Notes: a model not told the origin generated them from the letters alone. Counted from the stretch's first letter, positions 31,767-55,125 are shown. The stretch: 64,000 nt of DNA from Desulforudis sp. (GCA_003604975.1 QZIR01000074.1:124001-188000), one strand, 5' to 3'. A program made the numbers and translations.

Positions 31767-32768
31767 ATGAAGAGAATAATCGTTTGGCTCGGGATCATCT
31801 GTGTCATCGCGGCGGTTGGTGCCGGGCTGTGGTACGTCACTCACCCAAAGCCCGAGGTGAAAGAACACCGCCTGGTCGTGCGTGAGACGGCACGCGAAAT
31901 CGCTTATCTGCCGCACTACATCGCCGCCGCCAGGGGTTACTTCCGGGACGCCCACTTGGATGTCACCCTGGGAACGGCCACCAAAGGGATCTTGACGGCG
32001 GAGGAAGTGGCACAGGCAGACATCATCCTTACTCCTTTTGACCGGGTCCTGGGCAGCAACTGGCTGGCCATCGCCGGTTTAACCGCCACCGAGCCGGGGT
32101 TACTGCTGGCCCGGGAAAAGAAGACGCCCTTCGCCTGGACTGACCTGTCCGGGAAGACGGTCGTCGGTGAGCATCCGGAGGGCACCGGAGAAGTGGCTAT
32201 GGAACAGATCCTGCAATCCTACGAACTAATCCCGCAGTGGCAGTACGTCTCCATCCAGCACCTGCCGACCCATCTCCGCCTGGGCACCTACCTGTCCGGA
32301 ACCGGGGAATATATCATTCTCACCGATCCCGAGGCCAGCCGCATGGAGAAAACGGGCAAGGGGTACATTGCCGCAGACCTGACCGCAGCCGGGCCGATGC
32401 CCGCACGGGTGGCGGCCGTGCCTTCGGCCAAAGCCACACGGAACCGCGAAGCGCTGATCCGTTACACTGCAGCGGTAGCCCAGGCTCAGGCATGGATCGC
32501 GGAGCACAGCGAAGAGGAAGTGGCTGTGGTGGCATCCGGATCCTTCCCCTGGGTAGACTATCACACGATGGTGGAGATGGTCAGCCGGGCCAAGGAGACC
32601 AAACTCTGGGCCGCCAACCCCGTGATCGAACCGGTGTCCTTTGATCACTTCCAGGAGTTGATGATCCGGGCTGGCGAATTACCCCAAAAGATTCTCTACA
32701 CGAAGGCGGTGGCTTCTGATCCGGCAGAGCGGGCCCTTAAGGAACTGGCTGACCAGAAGAAGAAGTGA
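31767..32768 (+). CDS. Orphan ABC-type substrate-binding-like protein (NMT1/SsuA-like), membrane anchored
   Basis: A 333-aa protein with an uncleaved-looking N-terminal membrane segment (IIVWLGIICVIAAVGAGLWYV) and a periplasmic-binding fold of the NMT1/THI5 or SsuA type: YLPHYIAAARGYFRDAHLDVTL is the standard first motif. There is no lipobox Cys, so it is anchored by the helix. No permease or ATPase gene is near, and its ligand is unknown. GGGGGC ahead of ATG gives a fair ribosome site. A hairpin terminator follows. Confidence 0.75.
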   Translation: MKRIIVWLGIICVIAAVGAGLWYVTHPKPEVKEHRLVVRETAREIAYLPHYIAAARGYFRDAHLDVTLGTATKGILTAEEVAQADIILTPFDRVLGSNWLAIAGLTATEPGLLLAREKKTPFAWTDLSGKTVVGEHPEGTGEVAMEQILQSYELIPQWQYVSIQHLPTHLRLGTYLSGTGEYIILTDPEASRMEKTGKGYIAADLTAAGPMPARVAAVPSAKATRNREALIRYTAAVAQAQAWIAEHSEEEVAVVASGSFPWVDYHTMVEMVSRAKETKLWAANPVIEPVSFDHFQELMIRAGELPQKILYTKAVASDPAERALKELADQKKK

Positions 32769-32787
32769 ACGGTTAAAGCCAACCACA

Positions 32788-32813
32788 AAGCCCCCTCTTC
32801 CCGACGGGGGCTT
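32788..32813 (+). terminator. Hairpin between convergent genes
   Basis: AAGCCCCC and GGGGGCTT form an 8-bp GC-rich stem with a loop of about nine bases, twenty bases after the stop of the binding-protein gene. The T-tract (ACTCTTCTC) is weak. It lies between two convergent genes and may serve both. Confidence 0.65.
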
Positions 32814-32848
32814 ACTCTTCTCGGGAGGACATCAGTCTGTGGGACTGG

Positions 32849-33187
32849 CTAGCGGGCGTTAACGATGAGTGCTTTGGGCGCCGACGTAACGTCAGAGACC
32901 TTCATCACGGTCTCGTCAGGGGACCAGCCCAGGACAATCCGGATGCCGTCGTGGTGATCGATCTTGTGCAGATCGACTTTAAGACAACGTTCCCCACCGG
33001 GTCCGTTGTGGACAAACACGATTTGAAAGTCGGAATCACGATAAACCTTAAAGTAAGACTTATTCAAGTGCTTTTCCAGTAAGACAACTTCCGGTATTTC
33101 AATGTCAAAGAGAGATTTCTTTCTTGTTTCCCAGACCGCACCACCTTTAATCTCGTTGAACTCATCGATGAGGTCGCTAAGTGGCAT
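32849..33187 (-). CDS. Hypothetical protein, 112 aa
   Basis: I do not recognise this protein. It is soluble, mixed alpha/beta, with no cysteines, signal or membrane segment. It contains EIPEVVLLEKHLNKSYFKVYRDSDF and a stretch rich in charged residues around a DLHKIDHHDG segment. Start: ATG 33187 with GGAG eight bases upstream, preferred to the GTG at 33196. It sits alone between the orphan binding protein and the lon terminator. Codon use looks like its neighbours, and the clean ribosome site argues that it is real. Confidence 0.65.
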   Translation of the reverse strand: MPLSDLIDEFNEIKGGAVWETRKKSLFDIEIPEVVLLEKHLNKSYFKVYRDSDFQIVFVHNGPGGERCLKVDLHKIDHHDGIRIVLGWSPDETVMKVSDVTSAPKALIVNAR

Positions 33188-33235
33188 TACGGTCACTCCT
33201 TCCGGTACGTCTACAGTTCATATGCTTTAATCAAA

Positions 33236-33272
33236 AGAAAAAAAAGAGGACGATTGTGAAAATTCGCCCTCT
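33236..33272 (-). terminator. Terminator after lon
   Basis: 33245-33253 pairs with 33264-33272 (9 bp with one G-U) and is followed on the minus strand by TTTTTTTTC. A second small hairpin (TTCCTG / CAGGAA) precedes it at about 33280-33300. Confidence 0.85.
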
Positions 33273-33324
33273 ACCCTTGTCATTCCTGCAGACAGGAACG
33301 ATTCTGAACAAATTGTTTATTATC

Positions 33325-35727
33325 TTACTGACTAGGGATCGTTGTCACCAAATCCTGGTAATTTGGTTCTGACTGCATGATCAATGGATCATCGGTGATT
33401 ATATCGTTTGACTCTTCCTTAACCAGCGCCGCCTCAAGTACCTGGTCCATATGCTCAACCAGGACGAATTCCAGCTGGCTCTTGACGTTGGCCGGGATCT
33501 CCTCGAGATCCTTGCGGTTGGCGTCCGGCACAATGATGGTCTTGATCCCGCCGCGGTGGGCGGCCAGGACCTTCTCCTTCAAACCGCCGATCGGCAGCAC
33601 CCGCCCGCGCAAGGTGATCTCACCGGTCATCGCCACATCGTGACGCACCATCCGCCCGCTCAAGGCCGAAGCCAGCGCCGTGGCGATGGTAATGCCGGCT
33701 GAGGGGCCGTCCTTCGGGGTCGCCCCTTCCGGAACGTGCACGTGGATGTCTACCTTTTCATTGAAGGAAACATCGATCTCCAGTTTCGCCGCCCGGGAAC
33801 GGACGTAGCTGTAACCGGCCTGCGCCGACTCACGCATCACTTCACCCAGTTTACCGGTAAGCACCAGACCGCCCTTACCGTTACACACGGTGACCTCAAT
33901 GGCCAGCGTATCGCCGCCCACCTCGGTCCAGGCCAGACCGGTGGCTACCCCAACCTGGTCCACCAGTTCCGCGACACCGTAGCGGTAGCGCGGAATGCCT
34001 AGGTACTGTTCAATGTTGCGCATTGTTACCCGTACGCGCTTGGCCTTCTTGGCCACGATTTCCTTGGCCGTTTTCCGGCACAAGGCCGCAATCTGGCGCT
34101 CCATGTTACGGACCCCTGACTCACGGGTGTACTCCCGGATGATGCGCCGCACGGCGTTCTCCGAGATCGACAGGGTCTTATCGGTCAATCCGTGTTCCTT
34201 AAGCTGCTTGGGGATCAGGTGGCGAACGGTGATCTCCACCTTCTCCTCCTCGGTGTAACCCGAGATGTAGATGACCTCCATCCGGTCGAGGAGCGGCCGG
34301 GGAATACTGTAATTGACGTTGGCCGTCGTGATGAACATCACGTTGGACAGGTCAAACGGCATTTCAATGTAGTGGTCGCTGAACGCATTATTCTGCTCGG
34401 GATCGAGCACCTCCAGCAGTGCCGCCGAAGGATCGCCCCGAAAGTCCATGCTCATCTTGTCGATTTCGTCCAGCAGAAACACCGGGTTCTTCGAACCGGC
34501 AGTGCGCATCCCCTGAATCACGCGGCCCGGCAGCGCGCCGACATAGGTCCGGCGGTGACCGCGGATCTCAGCCTCATCACGTACGCCGCCGAGGGAAATC
34601 CGGACAAACTTGCGCTCGAGAGCCCGGGCAATCGACTTGCCCAGCGAGGTCTTACCCACGCCCGGGGGGCCAACAAAGCAAAGAATAGGGCCCTTCATTT
34701 TCTTCGACAGTTTGCGGATCGCCAGGTACTCCAAGATCCGCTCCTTCACCTTTTCGAGACCATAGTGGTCTTCATCCAGAATGATCTGGGCGGCATTGAT
34801 GTCCAGGCGGTCACGGGTGCCCTTGGTCCAGGGCAGAGCGACCAGCCAGTCCAGGTAGTTCCGAACCACCGTAGCCTCGGCGGCCATTGGAGGCATCTTC
34901 TCCAAGCGCTCTACCTCTTTTATGGCCTTCTCTTCGACTTCCTTGGGAAGCTTCAGGGCAGCAATCTTCTCGCGGTATTCTTCGCCCTCGGCCACTCGTT
35001 CGTCCTTTTCGCCCAGTTCACGCTGGATGGCCTTGATCTGCTCGCGCAGGTAGTACTCTTTTTGGGTCTTCTCCATCTGCTTACGTACGCGGACGTTGAT
35101 CCGGCGCTCAAGCTCCACGATCTCCAGCTCACGAGCCAGAACCCCGCAGAGGTGCTCCAGACGTTCGTCTATTTCGATCGCTTCCATGACACTCTGCTTA
35201 TCTTCAATGCGGAGCGGCAGATGCGAGGCGACGATGTCCGCCAGGCGGCCGGGCTCATCGATGTTGACGACCGAAACCACCGTCTCCGGCGGAATCCGCT
35301 TGGAAAGCTTGACATACTGCTCAAACTGCTGGACCAAGGTGCGCATGAGCGCTTCCAGCTCGGTGGTCTTGGCGAAGACCTCCGCGTACTGTTCAATCTC
35401 AACATTAAAATACGGGTCTTCCTGGAGATAACTGATGATTCTGGCCCGGGCAATGCCCTCCACCAACACGCGGATCGTACCACCGGGAAGCTTCAGCAGC
35501 TGCTTGACCTCGGCAACCGTTCCGACTTCGTAGATGTCCTCGATTTCGGGACTGTCAGTCTGTGCCTCTTTCTGAGTGGCCAGGAAAATGTAACGGTCCT
35601 GGCTCATTGCTTGTTCTATCGCTTTAACCGACTTCTCGCGGCCCACATCGAGATGGATGACCATATACGGAAAAACTAGGATCCCCCGCAGGGGCAACAA
35701 GGGTAACACTTTTTCAGTGGTATCCAT
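33325..35727 (-). CDS. lon: Lon (LonA) ATP-dependent protease
   Basis: An 800-aa soluble AAA+ protease. It has the N-terminal Lon substrate domain, a coiled coil (RRINVRVRKQMEKTQKEYYL), the ATP site FVGPPGVGKTSLGKS and FLLDEIDKM, and the Ser-Lys protease domain with PKDGPSAGITIATAL and a following catalytic lysine region (GGLKEKVLAAHRGGIKTI). It degrades misfolded and regulatory proteins. ATG 35727 has GGAGG eight bases before it; the GTG nine bases earlier is inside that site. Confidence 0.97.
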   Translation of the reverse strand: MDTTEKVLPLLPLRGILVFPYMVIHLDVGREKSVKAIEQAMSQDRYIFLATQKEAQTDSPEIEDIYEVGTVAEVKQLLKLPGGTIRVLVEGIARARIISYLQEDPYFNVEIEQYAEVFAKTTELEALMRTLVQQFEQYVKLSKRIPPETVVSVVNIDEPGRLADIVASHLPLRIEDKQSVMEAIEIDERLEHLCGVLARELEIVELERRINVRVRKQMEKTQKEYYLREQIKAIQRELGEKDERVAEGEEYREKIAALKLPKEVEEKAIKEVERLEKMPPMAAEATVVRNYLDWLVALPWTKGTRDRLDINAAQIILDEDHYGLEKVKERILEYLAIRKLSKKMKGPILCFVGPPGVGKTSLGKSIARALERKFVRISLGGVRDEAEIRGHRRTYVGALPGRVIQGMRTAGSKNPVFLLDEIDKMSMDFRGDPSAALLEVLDPEQNNAFSDHYIEMPFDLSNVMFITTANVNYSIPRPLLDRMEVIYISGYTEEEKVEITVRHLIPKQLKEHGLTDKTLSISENAVRRIIREYTRESGVRNMERQIAALCRKTAKEIVAKKAKRVRVTMRNIEQYLGIPRYRYGVAELVDQVGVATGLAWTEVGGDTLAIEVTVCNGKGGLVLTGKLGEVMRESAQAGYSYVRSRAAKLEIDVSFNEKVDIHVHVPEGATPKDGPSAGITIATALASALSGRMVRHDVAMTGEITLRGRVLPIGGLKEKVLAAHRGGIKTIIVPDANRKDLEEIPANVKSQLEFVLVEHMDQVLEAALVKEESNDIITDDPLIMQSEPNYQDLVTTIPSQ

Positions 35728-35747
35728 TTGCCGCACCTCCTTAACTA

Positions 35748-35776
35748 ACTATACTCTAAAACGCCAACAATGTTAA
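35748..35776 (-). promoter_or_regulatory. lon promoter (sigma-A type)
   Basis: Minus strand: TTAACA (35771-35776), 17-bp spacer, TATAGT (35748-35753). This places the start of transcription close to the AAGGAGG of lon, so the leader is very short. I see neither a CIRCE nor a CtsR operator around it. Confidence 0.75.
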
Positions 35777-35962
35777 AAAGCATTATCACTCCTCATTCTA
35801 GCACAGTGCCAGGAAGCGCTGCCACCGCCAATACATGTCACGGTACGTCTAAAACCCCTGGAAATACTGGATTTGGGGGAAGACCAAGCAAAACCCTCAG
35901 AACAGTATAGCAGACCCCCTAACCCGGAGTCCAATTAACTCGGAATTCTACGGCACGGCATA

Positions 35963-35998
35963 GTAAAAGGGTTTCCCTTCCTTTCCTGGGAAACCCTT
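35963..35998 (-). terminator. Terminator after lonB
   Basis: Perfect 11-bp stem AAGGGTTTCCC / GGGAAACCCTT (35967-35977 with 35988-35998), then TTTTACTA on the minus strand. It insulates lon from lonB. Confidence 0.85.
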
Positions 35999-36038
35999 CG
36001 GTGTCGTGCGCGTGGTATTGTCCGGATAGGAGCCGGTT

Positions 36039-37730
36039 CTAAACAACGGAGACCGTGGTTGGATTGGGGCTCGCCACGTACTGTTTCCTTACCGGCACGG
36101 CCTGGAGCAGGGCCCCGGCCAGGACCTCGTTCAGGCTCTTGACCGGTACAATTTCGATACCGTCTACGTCCTTGAACATTTCCTGGAAATTCTCATGCGG
36201 GATAAACACCTTTTTTACGCCGGCCTTGCACGCGGCGTGCACCTTGGCCACCACGCCCCCGACCGGTTTCACGCCTCCCCTGATGGCTACCTCACCGGTC
36301 ATTGCAACTTCGTTCGATATCGGAATGTTGTTCGCCGCCGAATACACGGCGGTGGCGATAGCGACACCGGCCGACGGGCCGTCAACAGGAGCACCCCCGG
36401 GGAAGTTGATATGAATGTCGTAGTGCTCGGCATCGAACCCGACCACGTGATTGAGCGCGGTGAGCACGTTCTCCACCGAACAGCGGGCCAGGCTCTTGCG
36501 TCGGACCACCCGTGCTCCCCCACCGAGCTGTTCCTCGTCCACCACACCGGTTACCCGCAACATCCCGCGCCGTTTCGTGACCGGAACCGCGGTCGCTTCG
36601 ACCTCGCTGAGGATGCCGGCATTCGGGCCGTAAACAGCCAGGCCGTTGACCCGGCCCACCATCGGGCTCTCCGGAATTCTCTTCTCCTGACGTGGGTTAT
36701 ACTGGCCGCTCTGAACCACCCACTCGACATCAGCAACCCGGATCTCGCTTCGTCCTTCCGTCAGGGCAAGGCCGGCCGCAAGCTGGATGATGTTTACCGC
36801 TTCACGGCCGTTTGTGGCGTATTTCTTGATTACCCCCAGCACACCGTCCAGCAGCTTGGTCCTGATCTTGGACGCGGCGTTGGCCGCGATTTGCTCCACC
36901 TCGTCGGGCTCAAGCGGGCGAAAGAAAATCTCCATGCACCGCGAGCGAATGGCCGGGGGAATCTCCTCGGACAGACGCGTGGTCGCGCCAACCATGCGGA
37001 AATCTGCGGGCAGGCCGTTTTGAAAGATGTCGTGGATGTGGCCGGGTACATTGGAATCATCCGGATTGTAATAGGCACTTTCCAAAAAGACCTTCCGGTC
37101 TTCCAGGACCTTGAGTAGCTTATTCATTTGTACTGGGTGCAACTCACCAATCTCATCAATAAAGAGCATCCCGCCGTGCGCCTTGGTAACGGCGCCCGGT
37201 TTGGGCTGGGGCACCCCGGCCATACCCATCGGACCGGCGCCTTGGTAGATTGGGTCATGCACCGAGCCGATCAGGGGATCGGCAATACCCCGTTCATCAA
37301 AGCGGGCCGTACAGGCGTCGATCTCGATAAACTTGGCCTCCGACTTGAACGGCGAAAAGCTGTTCTTCTTAGCTTCCTCCAGCACGAGGCGCGCTGCGGC
37401 GGTCTTGCCCACGCCCGGAGGGCCGTAAATGATGACATGCTGCGGATTAGGGCCGCACAGGGCCGCACTCAATGATTTGAGCCCCTCGGACTGGCCGATG
37501 ATTTCCGAAAAGTGGGTCGGCCTGGTTTTTTCAGATAGGGGCTCAGACAGCGAAATCGATCGCATTTGCCGCAACTTGTCTATTTCACGCCGGGACTCAC
37601 GGTCCACGGCCACTTTACTGCCTTTCTGCTGCTTAAGAAGGTTCCAAAAGTAAAGCCCGATGATGACGCCAAAAAATACCTGGACAAAAATGATGATGCC
37701 CGACATCCCGGGACCAAATTCACCCAACAC
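36039..37730 (-). CDS. lonB: LonB, membrane-anchored Lon-like protease
   Basis: A 563-aa protease of the LonB type: one N-terminal membrane helix (IIIFVQVFFGVIIGLYFWNLL) replaces the long LonA N-domain. The AAA+ site is YGPPGVGKTAAAR with MLFIDEIGEL; the protease domain has PVDGPSAGVAIATAVY. In Bacillus the homolog is made in the forespore under sigma-F. Located between lon and clpX as in many Clostridia. TTG start with GGGAGG nine bases upstream. Confidence 0.94.
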   Translation of the reverse strand: MLGEFGPGMSGIIIFVQVFFGVIIGLYFWNLLKQQKGSKVAVDRESRREIDKLRQMRSISLSEPLSEKTRPTHFSEIIGQSEGLKSLSAALCGPNPQHVIIYGPPGVGKTAAARLVLEEAKKNSFSPFKSEAKFIEIDACTARFDERGIADPLIGSVHDPIYQGAGPMGMAGVPQPKPGAVTKAHGGMLFIDEIGELHPVQMNKLLKVLEDRKVFLESAYYNPDDSNVPGHIHDIFQNGLPADFRMVGATTRLSEEIPPAIRSRCMEIFFRPLEPDEVEQIAANAASKIRTKLLDGVLGVIKKYATNGREAVNIIQLAAGLALTEGRSEIRVADVEWVVQSGQYNPRQEKRIPESPMVGRVNGLAVYGPNAGILSEVEATAVPVTKRRGMLRVTGVVDEEQLGGGARVVRRKSLARCSVENVLTALNHVVGFDAEHYDIHINFPGGAPVDGPSAGVAIATAVYSAANNIPISNEVAMTGEVAIRGGVKPVGGVVAKVHAACKAGVKKVFIPHENFQEMFKDVDGIEIVPVKSLNEVLAGALLQAVPVRKQYVASPNPTTVSVV

Positions 37731-37822
37731 GTTATACCTCCCAAAAGTCAGGTTTTACCTCTAGTATTGCAACTTTCGGTCGATTTAAACGCGGGACGAC
37801 AATCACCGCCGGACAATTGGAA

Positions 37823-37845
37823 AGCCGCCGTATGAAACGGCGGCT
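37823..37845 (-). terminator. Hairpin after clpX
   Basis: AGCCGCCG / CGGCGGCT, 8-bp perfect stem with a seven-base loop, about 35 bases after the clpX stop. The downstream T-tract is short (TTTCC), so it may slow decay rather than fully terminate. Confidence 0.6.
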
Positions 37846-37879
37846 GTAATCGGAACCCGAGTCCTTATATTTCCGGCCT

Positions 37880-39130
37880 TTAGATCAGGCCTTCCTTCTT
37901 TTTCTTCCGCTCCACCGTGATAATCATCGGCATTTCCCGCTTGACCACGGTCTCCTCGGAAATCGTACACTTGGCCACGTCACCCCGTGACGGGATGTCG
38001 TACATCACGTTGAGCATGATTTCCTCCAGGATCGCCCGAAGACCCCTGGCGCCCGTGTTACGCCGGATCGCCTCGGTAGCGATTGACTTGAGCGCTCCTT
38101 CCTGGAACTCCAAGGCCACTCCGTCCAGTTCAAACAGCTTCTCGTACTGTTTAACCAGAGCGTTGCGCGGTTCGGTCAGGATCCGGACGAGGTCATCCTC
38201 GCTCAACGGTTCCAGGGTCACAATTACCGGCAGACGTCCAACGAACTCGGGGATCAGGCCAAACTTCAGGAGATCCTGCGGCAGGATGTTGCGCAAAATC
38301 TCTCCCAGCTTACGTTCACGTTTCGTCATCAGTTCCGCGCCAAAACCCATCGTCTTCTGGGCTACACGGCTCTGGATAATCTTGTCGATACCCTCGAAAG
38401 CGCCACCGACGATAAACAGGATGTTCGTGGTATCCAACTGGATGAACTCCTGGTGGGGATGCTTACGCCCGCCCTGAGGCGGTACGCTGGCCACCGTACC
38501 CTCCAGAATTTTTAAGAGCGCCTGCTGTACACCTTCGCCCGATACGTCACGGGTGATGGACGGATTTTCGGACTTGCGGGCGATCTTATCAACCTCGTCG
38601 ATGTAGACGATGCCCTTCTCGGCCTTCTCCACGTCATAGTCGGCCGCCTGGATTAGCTTCAGCAGGATGTTCTCCACGTCTTCACCGACATACCCAGCTT
38701 CGGTCAGCGAGGTGGCATCGGCAATCGCAAAAGGCACGTTCAGGAACCGACTCAATGTCTGAGCCAAGAGGGTTTTACCCGAACCGGTGGGTCCGAGCAT
38801 CACGATGTTGCTCTTCTGGAGTTCCACGTCCTCGATCTTGCCACCCAGATTGATGCGCTTGTAGTGGTTGTAGACCGCTACGGACAGGATTTTCTTGGCG
38901 TACTGCTGACCGATGATGTACTGATCCAGATACTCCTTGATCTCAATCGGCTTGGGGATATCACGCAGTTCAAGACCAAGATCCTCGGTAAGTTCTTCTT
39001 CGATTATCTCGTTGCAGAGTTCAATGCACTCGTCACAAATGTAGACACCCGGACCGGCCACCAGTTTCTTCACCTGATCCTGCAGCTTACCGCAGAAGGA
39101 GCACTTCAACTGGCCTTTTTCGTTAAACAC
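37880..39130 (-). CDS. clpX: ClpX, ATPase subunit of ClpXP
   Basis: About 416 aa. The N-terminal C4 zinc domain (CSFCGK...CDECIELC), the ATP site [25 protein letters not shown] and the ClpP-binding loop region are all present. It unfolds tagged proteins and feeds them to ClpP. GTG 39130 has GAGGTGG five bases upstream; the earlier GTG at 39139 overlaps that site. It starts 14 bases after clpP ends. Confidence 0.97.
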
Positions 39131-48506: not shown

Positions 48507-49361
48507 CTAATCACTACCCGCTCGTTTTTGAAAGATGAGGACAAACTCGTGCACCTTGTTTACCCGGAAAACATGCGGGTATCCCAGCGGGCGCAAATTG
48601 TTGTATTCCTGGCGCCGGTCCCAGATGATGATGTCGTCCAGAACGAAACCGATCTTCTGCATCAGGTGGGAAACGTCCATATGGTACGGATAAAAGGTGG
48701 ATCCCTTGCGAATATCCATTACCACGACCACACAGTACGATCCGGTTGCGAGCACATCGAAGACCTGCTTGAAGACCACACCTAGTTCACCAAGAAACGA
48801 CTCATAGCCTGAGATCGTACCGAGGTCCCCCTGATTGTCCCCATAGTTCCGGATTCCCTTGCCGTCCGCGGAACGGCGCTGGTTCAGGATGTCCCAGTAA
48901 GGCGGTGAAGTAATGCACAGGTGCACCTGACCTGGATCAACATACCTGGCCAGGTTCCGGCTGTCGTCCCGAATGATCCGCGGATAGTCCTCCGGCCGGC
49001 CTTCGATCTCCCCCAGACGGCTGGTGGTCAGTTCCACGTATTCGGGGGAGAGCTCGAAGCCTATGGAGCGGATGCCAGAACGGTAGGCGCTCACCACGGA
49101 ACTGCCGCTGCCCATAAAAGGATCAAGCACAACCCCACCGGGGGGGCAGAAGATCTCCAGCAAGCGGTCGATCAATGCGGACGGGAACATCGCCGGATGC
49201 TTCAGTGCCCGTTCTTCCGCCGTTTTCACAAGATCATCCCATACACTAATCGAATAGCGCAGCCAAGTACGACCATCTAGTCGGTTGCCTCCGGATTCTT
49301 GCTCTCTCTTCTGTCCGGTATCATCGTCTTCGAGCCCCGGAGTGCCGTTATCACGAACCAT
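48507..49361 (-). CDS. Orphan DNA methyltransferase (N4-cytosine/N6-adenine type), permuted motif order
   Basis: A 284-aa methylase. The SAM-binding motif DPFMGSGSS, preceded by HPAMFPSALIDRLL, is N-terminal; the catalytic motif TSPPYWD comes after it, then YDIIIW-like and HEFVLIFQKR segments. In typical SPPY enzymes the order is the reverse, so the domain is circularly permuted. SPPY favours N4-methylcytosine but N6-adenine cannot be excluded. No restriction endonuclease gene is adjacent. It borders tRNA-Leu and the MoxR-VWA cassette. Confidence 0.85.
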   Translation of the reverse strand: MVRDNGTPGLEDDDTGQKREQESGGNRLDGRTWLRYSISVWDDLVKTAEERALKHPAMFPSALIDRLLEIFCPPGGVVLDPFMGSGSSVVSAYRSGIRSIGFELSPEYVELTTSRLGEIEGRPEDYPRIIRDDSRNLARYVDPGQVHLCITSPPYWDILNQRRSADGKGIRNYGDNQGDLGTISGYESFLGELGVVFKQVFDVLATGSYCVVVVMDIRKGSTFYPYHMDVSHLMQKIGFVLDDIIIWDRRQEYNNLRPLGYPHVFRVNKVHEFVLIFQKRAGSD

Positions 49362-49478
49362 TAAGCTCTATTCCCCCGCCTGTTGTGTTTAGGGCTTACT
49401 TCCACCACAGGGACCGGAATCCCTTCTGGATAAACGGTTTCCCCCCGCCCCTTCCAACAGTGTTGTCCCCTAGTATGG

Positions 49479-49507
49479 TTGATTTGGGCCACTGCATACT
49501 TTATAAT
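49479..49507 (+). promoter_or_regulatory. tRNA-Leu promoter
   Basis: TTGATT (49479-49484), 17-bp spacer, TATAAT (49502-49507), ten bases before the mature tRNA 5' end. Confidence 0.8.
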
Positions 49508-49517
49508 GATAAGGTAT

Positions 49518-49602
49518 GCGGGCGTGGCGGAATGGCAGACGCGCTAGACTTAGGATCTAGTGAGCTAAGCTCGTGGAGGTTCAAATCCTCTCGCCCGCAC
49601 CA
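49518..49602 (+). tRNA. tRNA-Leu (TAG)
   Basis: Class II tRNA with a long variable arm (TGAGCTAAGCTCG). Acceptor GCGGGCG/CGCCCGC, anticodon TAG (CTAGACTTAGGATCTAG), T-arm AGGTTCAAATCCT, encoded CCA. It stands alone between two minus-strand genes. Confidence 0.97.
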
Positions 49603-49703
49603 AATTAACCTGATCATCGGTGGCGCTATACGGCGCTACTTTCCTTTGCGGCGCGTTAAGTTAAAGGTCTTGCTGGCTGAAGTGCAATTAGGATACTTTG
49701 CAG

Positions 49704-50972
49704 TTACCCAGAACGACGCTGTGGCTCATGCTCCAGGTGAATAAACCGGGTCGTCGGCAGCGGCGGGGTCTTACCCGTCGTAACAAACACGACCCGGGCG
49801 GCACGTCTGGTGATACGCCGGTAAAGGTCAAGAGTCTGCTTTGCCTCGATGTCCGCGATGTAACCGTCCGACAGAATGATCACGATATCCTGCATCCGGA
49901 TCCGGCCTCCCAGTTCACGAAGCGCAGGACCCAGTACCGTCCCGCCGCCTCCCTTCAGGGCCGCCGGGATCTTGCGCCGTGCCTGAACGGCGGTCCGTGC
50001 CTGTACGACGGGATGAGCCTGGGCATCCCACGGAATCACTTTTAGATCGCAACTGTACACCCTGCTCACCGACCACACTTCCGTGACGAACTGGGCCAGC
50101 ACCTCGTCCGGAATAGATCCCGAGCAGTCAATCAGGGCCCATACTGTTTGGACCCCCAGCCGCTTTATGCCCGGAAATGAAGCGTATCGTCTGGAAGAGC
50201 GGTGCCAGGTGGAAACGACCATGCGTCCCGCCCCCTCTTGGACACTGCCCCTGATCTGGCGTCGCCAGCTGACCTGCGCCTTGAGTGACAGGTCTACCTG
50301 CCGTTTGATGTCTCCCGGCAGGACCCCGGCCTGGTGCACCGTTATGGCGGCCTCCGCTACCGTGGCACGCCAGAATTCTTCGGGGTCTTCACCCTCGCTC
50401 ATGGCACCTCCCTGGACCACTTCGCTGTCCTGGTGCTCAGACGGCGGTTCGGAAACGTCGTCGGGCTCATCCTGAATATTGCGTTCGAGATTGACCTCGA
50501 CCTTAGGGTTGTTGAGCAGACGATAGACCTCCTCACTGGATAACCGCCGTAGCTCGTCAAGACCCACTACCATTCCCGAGTCACGGACCAAGACTTGGAT
50601 CAAAACCGCCGTTACTGGGTTTCCCGGTGCATGGTTAAAACCGTGCCGAAACAGCATCTCGTTGATGACCATGTCGGTGGCCATGTTGTAGAGCTTGCGG
50701 TCACGGTCCTTGATTAGCCAAGGGTGTCGGAAAGCGAGGTGCAGGGCCTCGTGCAGCAGGATGAAGGCCTTTTTTTCGGGCCCATCCAGCTTACTCCAGA
50801 ATTCGGGATTAAAGATCGCCTCCCCATCGGGCGTGACCATCAGGGAGCGGACGTTCTTGTTAACCAGGATGCGCATTTTGCTCAGCAGGATCGCTAAAAA
50901 GGGCGCCTGCAGGAAGAGCAGCGCCTTGGTGTCTTCGATATCGCTTCGCATCTCCCGGATAAACTGATCCAT
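49704..50972 (-). CDS. Putative metallopeptidase plus VWA-like protein (DUF2201 type)
   Basis: A 422-aa protein. Residues 74-78 are HEALH (zinc-metallopeptidase-like HExxH), followed by an acidic linker (about 165-200). The C-terminal VWA-like domain starts VWALIDCSGSIPDEV, with the MIDAS DxSxS at 282-286, and ends with an ILSDGYIADIE segment. Proteins of this build are usually encoded beside a MoxR AAA+ ATPase, as here, where the ATPase lies ten bases upstream. The pair probably forms a chaperone or metal-insertion-like machine; the client is unknown. Confidence 0.85.
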   Translation of the reverse strand: MDQFIREMRSDIEDTKALLFLQAPFLAILLSKMRILVNKNVRSLMVTPDGEAIFNPEFWSKLDGPEKKAFILLHEALHLAFRHPWLIKDRDRKLYNMATDMVINEMLFRHGFNHAPGNPVTAVLIQVLVRDSGMVVGLDELRRLSSEEVYRLLNNPKVEVNLERNIQDEPDDVSEPPSEHQDSEVVQGGAMSEGEDPEEFWRATVAEAAITVHQAGVLPGDIKRQVDLSLKAQVSWRRQIRGSVQEGAGRMVVSTWHRSSRRYASFPGIKRLGVQTVWALIDCSGSIPDEVLAQFVTEVWSVSRVYSCDLKVIPWDAQAHPVVQARTAVQARRKIPAALKGGGGTVLGPALRELGGRIRMQDIVIILSDGYIADIEAKQTLDLYRRITRRAARVVFVTTGKTPPLPTTRFIHLEHEPQRRSG

Positions 50973-50982
50973 ATTATCGTAC

Positions 50983-52227
50983 CTACCTCAATAGGTTGCC
51001 CACCGAAGAATAGGAATCCATGATACTCTGTGACTGCGCGCACAGTTCCAGGTATAGGGCATCGTGCCACGGTGCATGCAGGCGGTTGGACAGGATAAAC
51101 CAGAGCAGGGCAAGGTACTCCTTGCTCTCCGCACCGATTACGTCCAGGAGCTTCACCGAAGCCCGCAGGTTAGGCTCAATGACCGCACGTGCGGCTGGGA
51201 TTTCCAGGTCTTCAGGGACCGAGGAAGCCAGTTTGAAGACGGACTCGGCCAGGCCCTGCCCGATTACCACCACCGCAATGTAGCGCTGGTCCAGGTTAAG
51301 GTCCCTGAAAAGGGACGGATTCTCCCGGAACTCCGTGAAACTGGGAACGGGGTTCTGCCAGAAGGCGTATAACCGCTCACCCACCTCGCTGCCCAGGGCG
51401 GCGATGCAGAGGGTGCGGATCGCCGAAGGTTTGAGACCCGTATCCACCGCGGCGACCAGGTCTTGGGCCAGGAACGTGTAGCTCCGCGGCGTGGGGTAAC
51501 CCTCCAGGGTCTCACCTTCCTCGGGAACCCTGCAGAAATCATCCGGGAACCGGTACAGATAAGCGAATACCTTCTCATCGCTGCGGTCGAAGTGGCTACT
51601 GACCCACCGCACCCATTGGGCCACGGTAGGTGGTTCGACCTCGATGCGGTACACACGGTTTAGCAGCGGGGCTGGCAGGAGGTTGGCGATGGAGCTGTCT
51701 TCGGGGCGGTTTCCAGCGCTGATCACCTGCACCCCGGGAGAAAAGCCGGTGAAGCCGGCGGCACGATCCTGAATCAACTTGTAGGCCGCGGCCAAGACGT
51801 CCGGTCGCTGGATGTTGGTCAGCTCATCGAGGAACAACATCCCCGGTAGTTCAGCAAGCAGAACCGCCCACTGAGGCGGATGATACACGATCTGTTTGCG
51901 TTCACGAATGGTTACCGTGACGGGACGTCCCATTAGGTCGACGGGCTCGGCCTCAGTCAGACGCAGGTCAACATAAACGAAATACCGGTCTGGATCAGCA
52001 AAGACTTTCTCCAGGTTGATGCCGACAAGGTGTTGTCGCTTGTATTCCAAGAAGATGCGGCCCTGGTCCCGGGCGATTTCACTCGCAATTTCCCGTACCA
52101 GTACACTCTTGCCGATTCCGGGCGGACCAAGCAGGAGAATGCTGCGCTTGGCGTCGGTACGGTGGATAAACGACGCCAGTTCCTTAACGGCATAAGGCGT
52201 CAGGGCGCCGTAAGCCTTGGTAGCCAA
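50983..52227 (-). CDS. MoxR-like AAA+ ATPase
   Basis: About 414 aa. Walker A is LLGPPGIGKSVLVRE, Walker B MLFLDELTN, and a sensor segment SAGNRPEDSS is followed by LLNRVYRIEVEPPT, matching the MoxR/RavA AAA+ class. The last 150 residues are a helical extension without recognised domain. TTG 52227 has AAGGAGG eight bases before it; the ORF extends to 52254 without support. Its start overlaps the end of the LRV gene by about 44 bases, so translation is likely coupled. Confidence 0.88.
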   Translation of the reverse strand: MATKAYGALTPYAVKELASFIHRTDAKRSILLLGPPGIGKSVLVREIASEIARDQGRIFLEYKRQHLVGINLEKVFADPDRYFVYVDLRLTEAEPVDLMGRPVTVTIRERKQIVYHPPQWAVLLAELPGMLFLDELTNIQRPDVLAAAYKLIQDRAAGFTGFSPGVQVISAGNRPEDSSIANLLPAPLLNRVYRIEVEPPTVAQWVRWVSSHFDRSDEKVFAYLYRFPDDFCRVPEEGETLEGYPTPRSYTFLAQDLVAAVDTGLKPSAIRTLCIAALGSEVGERLYAFWQNPVPSFTEFRENPSLFRDLNLDQRYIAVVVIGQGLAESVFKLASSVPEDLEIPAARAVIEPNLRASVKLLDVIGAESKEYLALLWFILSNRLHAPWHDALYLELCAQSQSIMDSYSSVGNLLR

Positions 52228-53476
52228 AACTGCTACCTCCTTTATTGTGTACAATCATCGTCCTCAAGAATGGCGGAAAATCGGGGTGATGTGCAAGATC
52301 ACCGAGGATCGGTGTGACTTCCCGGCCGTAGGCGGACGAGCACACCTGGGAAGCGGCTTCCAATACCATTCCGGCGAAACACGCCCGATGTACCAGTGCC
52401 TTGAGGCGTACAGTACGCCAGTTATCAGTCAGCAACAGGGCGATTGCCGCTGGCGGACACCCTTCATTCTCAACGGCCGCCAGTCTCACCGACCCCTCCC
52501 GGTCTCCAGCCAGGAGTTCGAGCACCGACGGCTCACACCGCTTATTCCGGGCCAGTTCCAGCCGGACACTGGGCTCCGGATCCACTGCCAGCAGGTGGCG
52601 TGTTTCATGCGGCGTAACGGGGTTACCGGCAACACCCCGCCTGATCCGGGGATCGGACTCCTCAGCCAGTTCAACCAGGATACTGACGGGGCAACCGGGG
52701 TTTAACGCCACCGACCCACGCACCCTGGAACTGGCCAGGGTAAGCAATTCGGTCAGTATTTCCGGCGGGCTCGCCGGGTTCGCCGCCAGCCGCTGCAAAA
52801 GAAAGACCACCGGCGGACTGAAATATAGAAGATAGGTGCGGCCAAATGCTTCCTCCATCTTATGAACAATGTCGTGCCCCCGTTCCAGGAGGTGGGACAG
52901 CACGGAAACCGGGGTGGAAGGATTCCCGCCGACGGCAATGCATACGCCCATCCGCGGGGAACCGGCCAGAGTCTCCAGCAGTCCTGGAGGACAGGCCTGG
53001 TTGGCGGACAAGGCTTCCAACACCGCTTCAGCTTCAGAATGGATAAACCCGTCCAGGGTTTCCTGCGGTGTACCCGGATTGCCGGCCACGGTCGAGACAA
53101 CGGCGGGAACCGTGTCCCCGGCCAGCCGCCTCAGGAGATCCGGCGCAGCGGAGGGGTTGGCGGCCACCGCGGCCCGGATCTCGGCAACAGGGTCTTCACC
53201 CAGCATGACAAGGAGATCGGCCGGGCACTGGGGGTTGGACGCAACAGCCAAACGCAGTGAATCATTACCCGTCCGGGCTTCTTCCTGGAGCACTTCGGGT
53301 GCACAGTTCCGGTGGCTCAGGGCCTTGTACCGCAGTTGAAAGTCTTTTACCACTGCCAGGCGGGATACGGCTTCGGTGGGGCACATGGGGTGCTCCAAGG
53401 CAAGGTGACGTAACCAGAGGTCGGGACTGGACACAAACGAACATAGTACCTGTAAAGGATGTGGATAATCCACCAT
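52184..53476 (-). CDS. LRV-type (leucine-rich repeat variant) solenoid protein
   Basis: A 430-aa protein built of about a dozen 22-26-residue repeats with the pattern VAxNPxCPxxLLxxLAxDxxxxVR, for example LRLAVASNPQCPADLLVMLG and RAAVAANPSAAPDLLRRLAG. This is the LRV repeat, which forms a right-handed superhelix used for protein contacts. The classical N-terminal four-Cys Fe-S module of LRV proteins is not evident, though many repeats keep one Cys. Encoded directly before the MoxR and VWA genes, it is likely the recognition or adaptor part. Confidence 0.82.
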   Translation of the reverse strand: MVDYPHPLQVLCSFVSSPDLWLRHLALEHPMCPTEAVSRLAVVKDFQLRYKALSHRNCAPEVLQEEARTGNDSLRLAVASNPQCPADLLVMLGEDPVAEIRAAVAANPSAAPDLLRRLAGDTVPAVVSTVAGNPGTPQETLDGFIHSEAEAVLEALSANQACPPGLLETLAGSPRMGVCIAVGGNPSTPVSVLSHLLERGHDIVHKMEEAFGRTYLLYFSPPVVFLLQRLAANPASPPEILTELLTLASSRVRGSVALNPGCPVSILVELAEESDPRIRRGVAGNPVTPHETRHLLAVDPEPSVRLELARNKRCEPSVLELLAGDREGSVRLAAVENEGCPPAAIALLLTDNWRTVRLKALVHRACFAGMVLEAASQVCSSAYGREVTPILGDLAHHPDFPPFLRTMIVHNKGGSSFGYQGLRRPDALCR

Positions 53477-53482
53477 ATGTAA

Positions 53483-53516
53483 ACACCCCGGTATTAATGT
53501 ATTAACACCGGGGTGT
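53483..53516 (-). promoter_or_regulatory. Intercistronic hairpin covering the LRV gene ribosome site
   Basis: ACACCCCGGT (53483-53492) and ACCGGGGTGT (53507-53516) are perfect 10-bp complements, extended by TTAAT/ATTAA in the loop. On the minus strand the 3' arm contains GGGGTG seven bases before the LRV ATG. No other ribosome site is visible, so folding should block translation. A weak terminator is the alternative. Confidence 0.7.
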
Positions 53517-53530
53517 AGAAATATACAGTT

Positions 53531-53815
53531 TCATGACGATCTTCGCAGTTTTTGTGTCTCCCATCTCCGGATCCCCTCGACCACCGGCGGGCTGGTCTCG
53601 ATCAACGAGCCGTAGGCTAACACCCAAAGCCGGGCCCGCATCCCGCGCAGTGTCTTCAAAATGCGGCGTTCGGCTCGGGATGTTAAGGCCACCAGCCTGA
53701 GCACCAGCAGCAGCCGGTACAGCTGAAAAGACGAAAGTTCCTCCAGAGATGCGGCCAGGTCCGCCCTGGAACCGGTACGGTAAGCAGTCCTGCAAAATGG
53801 TTTAACCTGAGCCAC
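53531..53815 (-). CDS. Hypothetical 94-aa basic protein of the WYL-LRV-MoxR cassette
   Basis: I do not recognise this protein. It is rich in Arg and Leu and mostly helical (LAASLEELSSFQLYRLLLVLRLVALTSRAERRILKTLRGMRARLWVLAYGSL). The hydrophobic middle could be a membrane-associated or helical-bundle segment. GTG start with AGGAGG eight bases upstream. Located between the WYL regulator and the LRV gene, all on the minus strand. Confidence 0.65.
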   Translation of the reverse strand: MAQVKPFCRTAYRTGSRADLAASLEELSSFQLYRLLLVLRLVALTSRAERRILKTLRGMRARLWVLAYGSLIETSPPVVEGIRRWETQKLRRSS

Positions 53816-53910
53816 GATTCATTCCTCCTCAAATTTGAATTCTAACCCTCAGGATAGAGGAGGCCCTTGTCCATAGCTGGTCACTGGTCAAAAAATATTT
53901 CTCGGACTTA

Positions 53911-55125
53911 CTATTCCCGGTACAAACCGGCAATGGCGGCGCCCATGTCCCGGACCTGGTGGCGCAGTGATTCCGGTTCCAAGACCTCTACCCGGTCCAG
54001 CCACTGCACAATCCAGGTCTGCAGTTCGGCAAGGCCGGAAACCCGGAAGGACACCACAACCGAACCGTCGGCGCTCTCCTCTTCGATACACTGTGAAGGA
54101 TGGTAGAGAATGCGGCGAAGTCGGTAAGCCACAGAGGGTGCAAAGCGCAGCACAACCCGTCGTGCCTCGCCGTCCTTCATCACACCCCAGGTATCAGCGA
54201 GGTAGTCCTGTACCAGAAAATCGGCCGGATACTCAAAATGCTCGTCGCTTCGTGTGACCGCATTCTCGATCTGGTCCACCCGGAAGGTGCGTACAGCCTG
54301 GCTATTGGTACAGTAGCCTACCAGAAACCAATGCTGTCGCTTACAAACCAGGGCGTACGGCTCGATGACCCGTTCGGACAGTACCCCCCTGTAGCCTACG
54401 AAGTACCAGATCTTAAGGCGTACCTGGTCCTGCAGGGCATCGGTAATCCGGGCAAAAACGCGCCCAACCTGTTCGGGATTGGCCAGAGTCTCCTCAACAA
54501 AGTACAGCCTCTGCTGGAGACGTTCTACAGGGAAGTCATCCGGTCGGTAGCGGTTTTTAAAGAGATGGGTGACCAGTACGTCCTTGATGGTATTGATGTG
54601 GCCCGACAGCGCCGAGCCCTTCTGCTGCAGAAGGCTCAGGAAAATGATCAGGGCCTGGTCCGGGCGCAACGGAGGTAGATACGAGGCTTTGAGGGAGTAC
54701 CGCGACGGTTGTCCGTTCTTGGCCAGGGGGGTGTCCATCTCGTGTTCGACGGTTTTCAGATCACGGTAGATCTGCCTTTCACCCACTCCGCACAGGGCCG
54801 ACAACTCACGAACCGTCACCCCTCCACGTGGTGTGTGGGCGTTTAAGATGTTCAGTATCTTTACCAATCTGGCGGCACGGCTGGTATCCCTGGCCTGACC
54901 ACTTTCAGCATCCTGTAGCAGCCTCTTCAGCTGTGCTGTGGTGAGCTGACCGTCGAAGGTCTGGATTCTGTATCGGCCTCGTTCACAAACGCGAGGGTTA
55001 TCCTGTAGGGATCGGAGTAACCGGTAAAGCTCGAAGGGCTCCACTTCAAGGTGGTCGCAGAGTACGTCCAACTCCGCGTCCGGGTGAGACTCCACAAATG
55101 CAATCAGGCGTTCCTCAATCAGCAA
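53911..55125 (-). CDS. WYL-domain transcriptional regulator
   Basis: About 404 aa. A winged-helix part (VTVRELSALCGVGERQIYRDLKTVEHEMDTPL) is followed by a WYL domain (VIEPYALVCKRQHWFLVGYC) and the WCX-like C-terminal extension. WYL proteins sense nucleotides or nucleic acids and often control phage-defence or DNA-repair loci. An extra helical segment precedes the HTH. The ORF could extend to 55335, but the added 70 residues look non-coding; TTG 55125 has GGGGG eight bases upstream. Confidence 0.85.
   Translation of the reverse strand: MLIEERLIAFVESHPDAELDVLCDHLEVEPFELYRLLRSLQDNPRVCERGRYRIQTFDGQLTTAQLKRLLQDAESGQARDTSRAARLVKILNILNAHTPRGGVTVRELSALCGVGERQIYRDLKTVEHEMDTPLAKNGQPSRYSLKASYLPPLRPDQALIIFLSLLQQKGSALSGHINTIKDVLVTHLFKNRYRPDDFPVERLQQRLYFVEETLANPEQVGRVFARITDALQDQVRLKIWYFVGYRGVLSERVIEPYALVCKRQHWFLVGYCTNSQAVRTFRVDQIENAVTRSDEHFEYPADFLVQDYLADTWGVMKDGEARRVVLRFAPSVAYRLRRILYHPSQCIEEESADGSVVVSFRVSGLAELQTWIVQWLDRVEVLEPESLRHQVRDMGAAIAGLYRE

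Follow-up and report, generated by a model that had tools for sequence, protein, structure and literature searches.

Pairs of a MoxR-type AAA+ ATPase and a VWA protein are widespread, and few of their clients are known. We describe here a stretch of 64,000 nucleotides from Desulforudis sp. (GCA_003604975.1, QZIR01000074.1:124001-188000; hereafter the window) in which such a pair follows a gene for an LRV-repeat protein, and in which the VWA protein carries a metallopeptidase-like DUF2201 domain. The host genome (G000) is Desulforudis-like, from the deep subsurface, and comprises 3.1 Mb in 75 contigs. The LRV-MoxR-DUF2201 triad occupies window positions 49704-53476 on the minus strand, and we think it fairly likely that it encodes a three-component, ATP-driven protein-remodelling machine.

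In NorQD, a finger of the VWA protein enters the pore of the AAA+ ring, while ATP hydrolysis turns the VWA domain and reshapes a linker (PMC13036017). The window locus resembles NorQD, CbbQO and RavA-ViaA in that the AAA+ MoxR gene adjoins a VWA gene with a full MIDAS, but it differs from them in having an additional LRV solenoid gene and no linked client enzyme. Its VWA protein shares with NorD the succession of N-terminal domain, linker and VWA domain, as well as a match in the VWA fold, but has an HExxH-containing DUF2201_N domain in place of the N-terminal domains of NorD and ViaA. The MoxR-vWA ternary conflict systems (with VMAP, iSTAND, FtsH or beta-propeller components; PMC7159879) likewise combine a MoxR-VWA couple with a third conserved component and are patchily distributed, but the third component here is LRV, a term that the main text of PMC7159879 does not use. 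None of these VMAP, iSTAND, FtsH or beta-propeller domains was found in a Pfam scan of the triad, in which no effector domains were seen either. The window MoxR and VWA proteins belong to the widespread, uncharacterised DUF2201-MoxR pairs; an open-access literature search found no mention of DUF2201. Most of the Bacillota pairs examined lack LRV, and the upstream partners in related pairs are pentapeptide-repeat or SWIM-finger proteins. The triad is a variation on known MoxR-VWA systems.

The LRV gene (52184-53476, minus strand) encodes a 430-aa alpha-solenoid protein (Pfam LRV, E = 1.3e-29). Its AF2 model is an all-helical solenoid (pLDDT 90.1, pTM 0.83) that Foldseek matched to HEAT/ARM solenoids and to 1LRV, the sole sequence match of the protein in the PDB, and both its Pfam repeats and its LRV-like solenoid place it in the LRV family. 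Repeats and solenoid are common to it and the Azotobacter LRV protein (1LRV), but for the window protein the Pfam scan gave no match to an iron-sulfur LRV domain, and its genomic setting is different. The gene overlaps that of the MoxR-like ATPase (414 aa, 50983-52227, minus strand; Pfam AAA/AAA_5 above cut-off) by 44 nt, with the MoxR start most likely a TTG at 52227 preceded by the ribosome site AAAGGAGG, and a gap of 10 nt separates MoxR from the VWA gene.

Conserved motifs of MoxR are kept in seven orthologues (Walker A GPPGIGKS, Walker B LFLDE, sensor-1 N172, LLNR and TPRS), and with Walker A and B, sensor 1 and sensor 2 intact the protein has the ATPase motifs of the MoxR-VWA chaperones. 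Its bpMoxR score in Pfam (19.6) is under the cut-off of 27, and its PADLOC match to mad8 reaches just 8e-6, across the P-loop region; these two matches and many NCBIfam AAA matches were rejected as generic P-loop matches. On inspection, the VMAP-type N-terminal motifs WxhapG and PsWRxa (as defined in PMC7159879) do not occur in the MoxR alignment.

The third protein (422 aa, 49704-50972, minus strand) consists of an HExxH metallopeptidase-like domain with the motif HEALH, an acidic linker and a MIDAS VWA domain with the motif DCSGS. Its Pfam matches are to DUF2201_N (5.8e-29; 102 bits, cut-off 23.2) and DUF2201 (1.5e-7; 32 bits, cut-off 26.4). Among 18 diverse homologues, H74, E75, H78, N96, D100, N104 and W236 are invariant, as are D282, S284, S286, T345 and D369 of the full MIDAS (DxSxS-T-D), and D100 is a conserved candidate for the third ligand of the HExxH site. 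The combination of HExxH...NxAxD and DxSxS recurs over about 60 homologues, and all LRV-linked DUF2201 proteins examined keep HExxH...NxAxD and the MIDAS. The invariance of the glutamate in this LRV-linked subset leans towards catalysis. No solved structure of any DUF2201 relative was detectable by sequence; the AF2 model matches the VWA domains of CLCA1, the midasin MIDAS and NorD of NorQD. A conserved hairpin at residues 253-270 (TWHRSSRRYASFPG), ahead of the VWA domain, is by analogy a candidate pore finger.

We surveyed 100 genomes of the order for the triad. Strong MoxR matches occur in eight genomes besides the window genome (G001, G002, G004, G007, G012, G042, G074 and G081, with the G004 copy decayed), and LRV matches occur in the same eight, while G008 has an LRV remnant and G027 a weak LRV match; the LRV gene of G002, missed by the gene picker, was located by the LRV search. 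The order LRV-MoxR-VWA is kept in every intact locus, although the G007 copy is split across two contigs. What survives in G004 is the beginning of LRV (~52 residues), MoxR from ~110 onwards and a VWA gene without its middle, and in G008 a short piece of LRV is followed by VWA fragments. Both remnants keep the neighbours of intact copies (the YdjC family in G002 and G004, QueA in G012 and G008). The triad appears to have decayed in place through internal deletions at L041:9742-11722 (G004) and L048:4930-5491 (G008), which may be real or artefacts of metagenome assembly. It is absent from G003, G005 and G006, the last only 73% complete. The MoxR and VWA trees agree with that of RpoB on the main splits, and therefore the triad has been inherited vertically, with several losses or decays. 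Because of this broad agreement we rejected a recent horizontal transfer into individual genomes of the order. Its genomic position varies between genera. The three genes are co-encoded, co-inherited and co-lost within the order; the function of the triad is accessory, with repeated losses. A preliminary description of this stretch, made from its sequence, had raised patchy distribution against universal conservation at the locus, and the survey bears out the former: the triad is found in eight relatives and as the G008 remnant, and several relatives have lost it.

That description had also proposed LRV as a variable recognition arm, which holds insofar as LRV is the fastest-evolving of the three proteins. 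Within the genus, identity is 75% for LRV, 90% for MoxR and 84% for the VWA protein, and dN/dS is 0.175, 0.043 and 0.076, respectively; all three values indicate purifying selection, and synonymous sites approach saturation. Change within LRV is greatest in the central repeats, where several 24-codon blocks are at 54-62% identity, and smallest in the C-terminal cap (96%). Across the order, however, LRV proteins are colinear and of 396-436 aa, with no change in copy number, no hypervariable change and no average sign of positive selection. A hypervariable LRV was accordingly ruled out on the basis of constant length, colinearity and average purifying selection, with the middle repeats the least conserved.

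The trio also occurs beyond the order. In a scan that used one genome per species, the closest MoxR relatives, at 34-42% identity, are archaeal (Thermoproteota and others), some of them on contigs that are viral- or plasmid-like by gene content; their neighbourhoods contain DUF2201, and LRV was not detected there. LRV adjoins MoxR-DUF2201 in the Deltaproteobacteria metagenome-assembled genome (MAG) L067, and in a second such MAG (L068) the last of three LRV genes overlaps MoxR, after which the contig stops. On the Thermus oshimai plasmid pTHEOS01 the order is LRV-MoxR-VWA, with LRV and MoxR overlapping by 14 bp, and on the Allomeiothermus silvanus plasmid pMESIL01 it is LRV-VWA-MoxR. On Synechocystis pSYSA (homologues SGL_RS00715, 00745 and 00750), 4 kb separate a MoxR-VWA pair from the gene for a 638-aa LRV protein, beside CRISPR I-D genes, and in a Zixibacteria MAG an LRV-like 177-aa gene that no Pfam model recognises lies upstream of a MoxR-VWA pair. 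The pSYSA LRV protein (L163:8267-10183) contains about a dozen near-identical 24-aa repeats, which suggests a recent repeat expansion on this defence plasmid. Among MoxR-DUF2201 pairs on viral contigs no LRV gene lies beside the pair, and a weak LRV match was seen in one phage record only.

In the MoxR tree, the clade of the Desulforudis order groups with the archaeal pairs (100/99), the Deltaproteobacteria, Thermus, Zixibacteria and pSYSA sequences form part of another clade (100/100), and the Allomeiothermus sequence falls elsewhere, on a long branch. A single clade for the LRV-linked MoxRs of the order and the Deltaproteobacteria was rejected (AU test, p = 3.8e-8). The LRV-linked MoxRs thus lie on at least two and probably three separate branches, and the pairing seems to have arisen repeatedly: LRV either joined such pairs on several occasions or passed between lineages, and both argue for functional coupling. 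An alternative is that LRV is next to MoxR by chance, as a common repeat family beside a common ATPase; in its favour, LRV genes without MoxR nearby occur on some plasmids of Deinococcus and Aeromonas (L165:5932-14649 and L166:8563-20000, with very long or multiple LRV proteins and no MoxR-DUF2201 in the fetched stretch). Nevertheless, the same linkage is found on separate MoxR branches, the LRV and MoxR genes overlap in three lineages, and the two are present and lost jointly, all of which make chance adjacency highly improbable. The LRV-MoxR-VWA partnership is probably functional.

The triad also appears to have regulatory DNA of its own, which the preliminary description did not contain. 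A 34-nt near-perfect palindrome, ACACCCCGGTGTTAAT-AC-ATTAATACCGGGGTGT (53483-53516, minus strand), lies 6 nt ahead of the first codon of LRV; its 30-nt core is expected zero times in shuffled sequence. It occurs once per genome in G000, G001 and G012, each time before LRV, and the block that holds it is 97% identical, versus 53-85% for most surrounding blocks. In an alignment of the leaders of eight genomes, related dyads precede LRV in G002, G004, G007, G008 and G042, some of them less regular, and changes in the dyad arms, as read by eye, are partly compensatory (e.g. GG/CC to AA/TT in G008). Several LRV leaders contain TTGACA or TTTACA followed after 16-17 nt by TAATAC/A/G. The dyad therefore probably overlaps a core promoter that separates the triad from the WYL and 94-aa genes located upstream. 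The LRV promoter was not picked up by a scan for consensus promoters, and the promoter claim rests on cross-genome conservation. By this comparison the dyad is probably an operator over the triad's own promoter, and therefore the triad is probably switched by a dedicated regulator. A hairpin in the mRNA (predicted at -26 kcal/mol) is a less likely role for the dyad than a DNA operator because the -35 and -10 boxes are embedded in the palindrome.

How might such a machine work? By analogy with characterised pairs, MoxR would form a hexameric motor, the VWA protein would dock on it as NorD does on NorQ, and MoxR would drive the DUF2201 protein as in NorQD. The LRV solenoid may occupy an adaptor slot and use its variable middle repeats to pick a specific client; we view it as an exchangeable adaptor because pentapeptide-repeat or SWIM-finger proteins fill this slot in related pairs. 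The HExxH domain is predicted to bind zinc and, once the client has been remodelled, may cleave it or bring about its maturation. The sequences themselves show the co-occurrence, gene overlap and joint loss of the triad, the conserved motifs, the polyphyly of the LRV pairing and the conserved dyad in the leader, whereas complex formation, the roles of the parts, protease activity and the regulator are steps that we infer.

Pentapeptide-repeat proteins precede MoxR-DUF2201 at L053:9202-12337, L054:8038-11226 and L080:505-3591 (identified by Pfam on L080 and by homology on the others), with the motif HTxxH in place of HExxH. At two Deltaproteobacteria-class loci (L092:59-2663 and L093:2-2546), a small SWIM zinc-finger protein precedes the pair.

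Several observations weigh against a remodelling machine of this kind. No client gene is consistently linked to the triad in the neighbourhoods examined. DUF2201 occurs in 14 of 299 sampled Bacillota genomes, and none of the 12 other loci fetched has an LRV gene beside DUF2201-MoxR; because most pairs are without LRV, it is not obligatory for the pair. The HExxH glutamate is lost in the pentapeptide-linked members (HTxxH) and in at least one other Bacillota pair (L157, HCxxH; L156 and L158 appear similar on inspection), and peptidase activity is therefore no family-wide requirement. The AF2 model of the DUF2201 protein is also modest (pLDDT 82.4, pTM 0.56).

The loss of the glutamate bears on a closely related explanation, which is that the triad is a NorQD/CbbQO-like chaperone for metal insertion or maturation of one enzyme, in which the HExxH site holds metal and does not cut; this would be the same machine with another last step. 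Maturing or activating an enzyme is what the best-studied MoxR-VWA pairs do (PMC9976466, PMC13036017, PMC4660213), and the HxxxH-D ligands persist where the glutamate has been lost. Genes for fumarase and CCG proteins lie nearby in G002 and G007, and a tungsten-type AOR gene lies directly upstream in G042. However, these metalloenzyme neighbours change from genus to genus, and in the data examined the triad has no enzyme as a constant companion. We regard this explanation as a genuine possibility, albeit one we would not favour.

In a more specific form of the remodelling machine, the solenoid would be a sensor that recognises a foreign or damaged protein, the motor would feed this protein to the built-in metalloprotease, and adaptors would have been recruited independently on separate MoxR branches; we advance this form tentatively and consider it rather doubtful. 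Closer to the likeness to conflict and chaperone systems noted in the preliminary description is the alternative that the triad acts against phages or plasmids, with LRV sensing an invader protein, MoxR-VWA setting a threshold and HExxH as a protease effector. Part of that likeness stands, namely MoxR, VWA and a third component, as in the conflict systems already described (PMC7159879), but there is no defence neighbour or recognisable effector here. The triad is patchy and repeatedly lost, and in the region compared dN/dS is highest for LRV and the 94-aa gene. Also in favour of a conflict system, distant relatives are carried by plasmids, in one case close to CRISPR-Cas genes and a cluster of ribonuclease/antidote type: the pSYSA relative keeps company with CRISPR I-D, DUF262 and ribonuclease/antidote-type genes, and the Thermus plasmid relative adjoins genes for UvrD and RecQ helicases. 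On the other hand, no PADLOC model (covering known anti-phage systems including MADS) matches LRV, the 94-aa protein or DUF2201. The genes flanking the triad in the window genome are housekeeping or transport genes with no credible PADLOC matches, so that proximity to defence genes, a check suggested in the preliminary description, was not borne out and a defence-island context was rejected here; matches of an ABC ATPase among these neighbours to mad3/AriA were set aside as reflecting a common ATPase fold. Inheritance within the order is vertical, no effector domain or diversity-generating element was seen, and LRV has a constant architecture under average purifying selection. Taken with the evidence on its side, these points make a conflict function unlikely. 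Elsewhere, MoxR-DUF2201 lies beside type I CRISPR-Cas-like genes in a Jordarchaeia sequence (L060:827-9774, by eye only) and near a locus resembling type I restriction-modification (L052:2-9461, hsd-like genes, by eye).

The remaining neighbours do not belong to the recurrent unit. In transcription sense, ORF (open reading frame) calling and Pfam give the minus-strand order WYL/WCX, 94-aa ORF, LRV, MoxR and DUF2201 (HExxH + VWA). The transcription regulator (53911-~55125, minus strand; Pfam WYL 4e-19, WCX 3e-18) is followed by a 94-aa basic protein of no known family (53531-53815, minus strand). On the other side of the triad are a tRNA-Leu gene (TAG; 49518-49602, plus strand; ARAGORN and Rfam) and an N4/N6 DNA methylase gene (48507-49361, minus strand; Pfam N6_N4_Mtase 4e-30), with the tRNA between triad and methylase. 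The inventory in the preliminary description, of five same-strand genes with an LRV/MoxR overlap and a methylase and a tRNA at the borders, was recovered in full by ORF calls, Pfam, ARAGORN and Rfam. The 94-aa ORF is a real gene because its dN/dS against the sister species is about 0.21 (0.208, with pS 0.54). Among the 100 relatives it is present only in G001, which is of the same genus, and G001 is likewise the only relative that has the WYL gene and the methylase in its triad neighbourhood, among those examined.

That all five genes, WYL and 94-aa included, form one functional system is suggested by their shared strand, the short spacing between them and their joint conservation in both members of the genus. 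In other genomes, however, the WYL and 94-aa genes are not near the triad, and the triad has its own promoter and palindrome, which also precede LRV in G012 without such an adjacent WYL gene. We consider a single five-gene system quite improbable and dropped the five-gene cassette on account of the restriction of WYL and 94-aa to the genus, where they are local neighbours outside the core. The system proposed earlier is thereby reduced to LRV, MoxR and VWA as the recurrent unit, and of the two genes whose linkage to MoxR-VWA elsewhere had been in question, LRV is linked and WYL is not. The WYL protein is a possible regulator of the triad.

Outside the window, the same genome encodes a 1959-aa single-chain protein that resembles RNA polymerase beta/beta-prime (L160:6320-12199, minus strand, corresponding to contig C10, about 32319-38198). 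It is additional to the normal rpoB, adjoins a gene for a sigma-54-activator-type AAA protein and has an N-terminus that is Nudix-like by eye, where there is no Pfam match.

A triad with an exchangeable repeat adaptor offers a route to the question of how MoxR motors choose their clients and to that of whether the HExxH domain is a protease, and homologues exist in tractable hosts, namely Synechocystis PCC 6803 (pSYSA) and Thermus. If the reading as sensor, motor and metalloprotease is true, the triad would represent an uncharacterised class of AAA+ machine that serves immunity or quality control as a modular platform; it occurs in Bacillota, Deltaproteobacteria and Deinococcota, and Cyanobacteria have an LRV gene near the pair.

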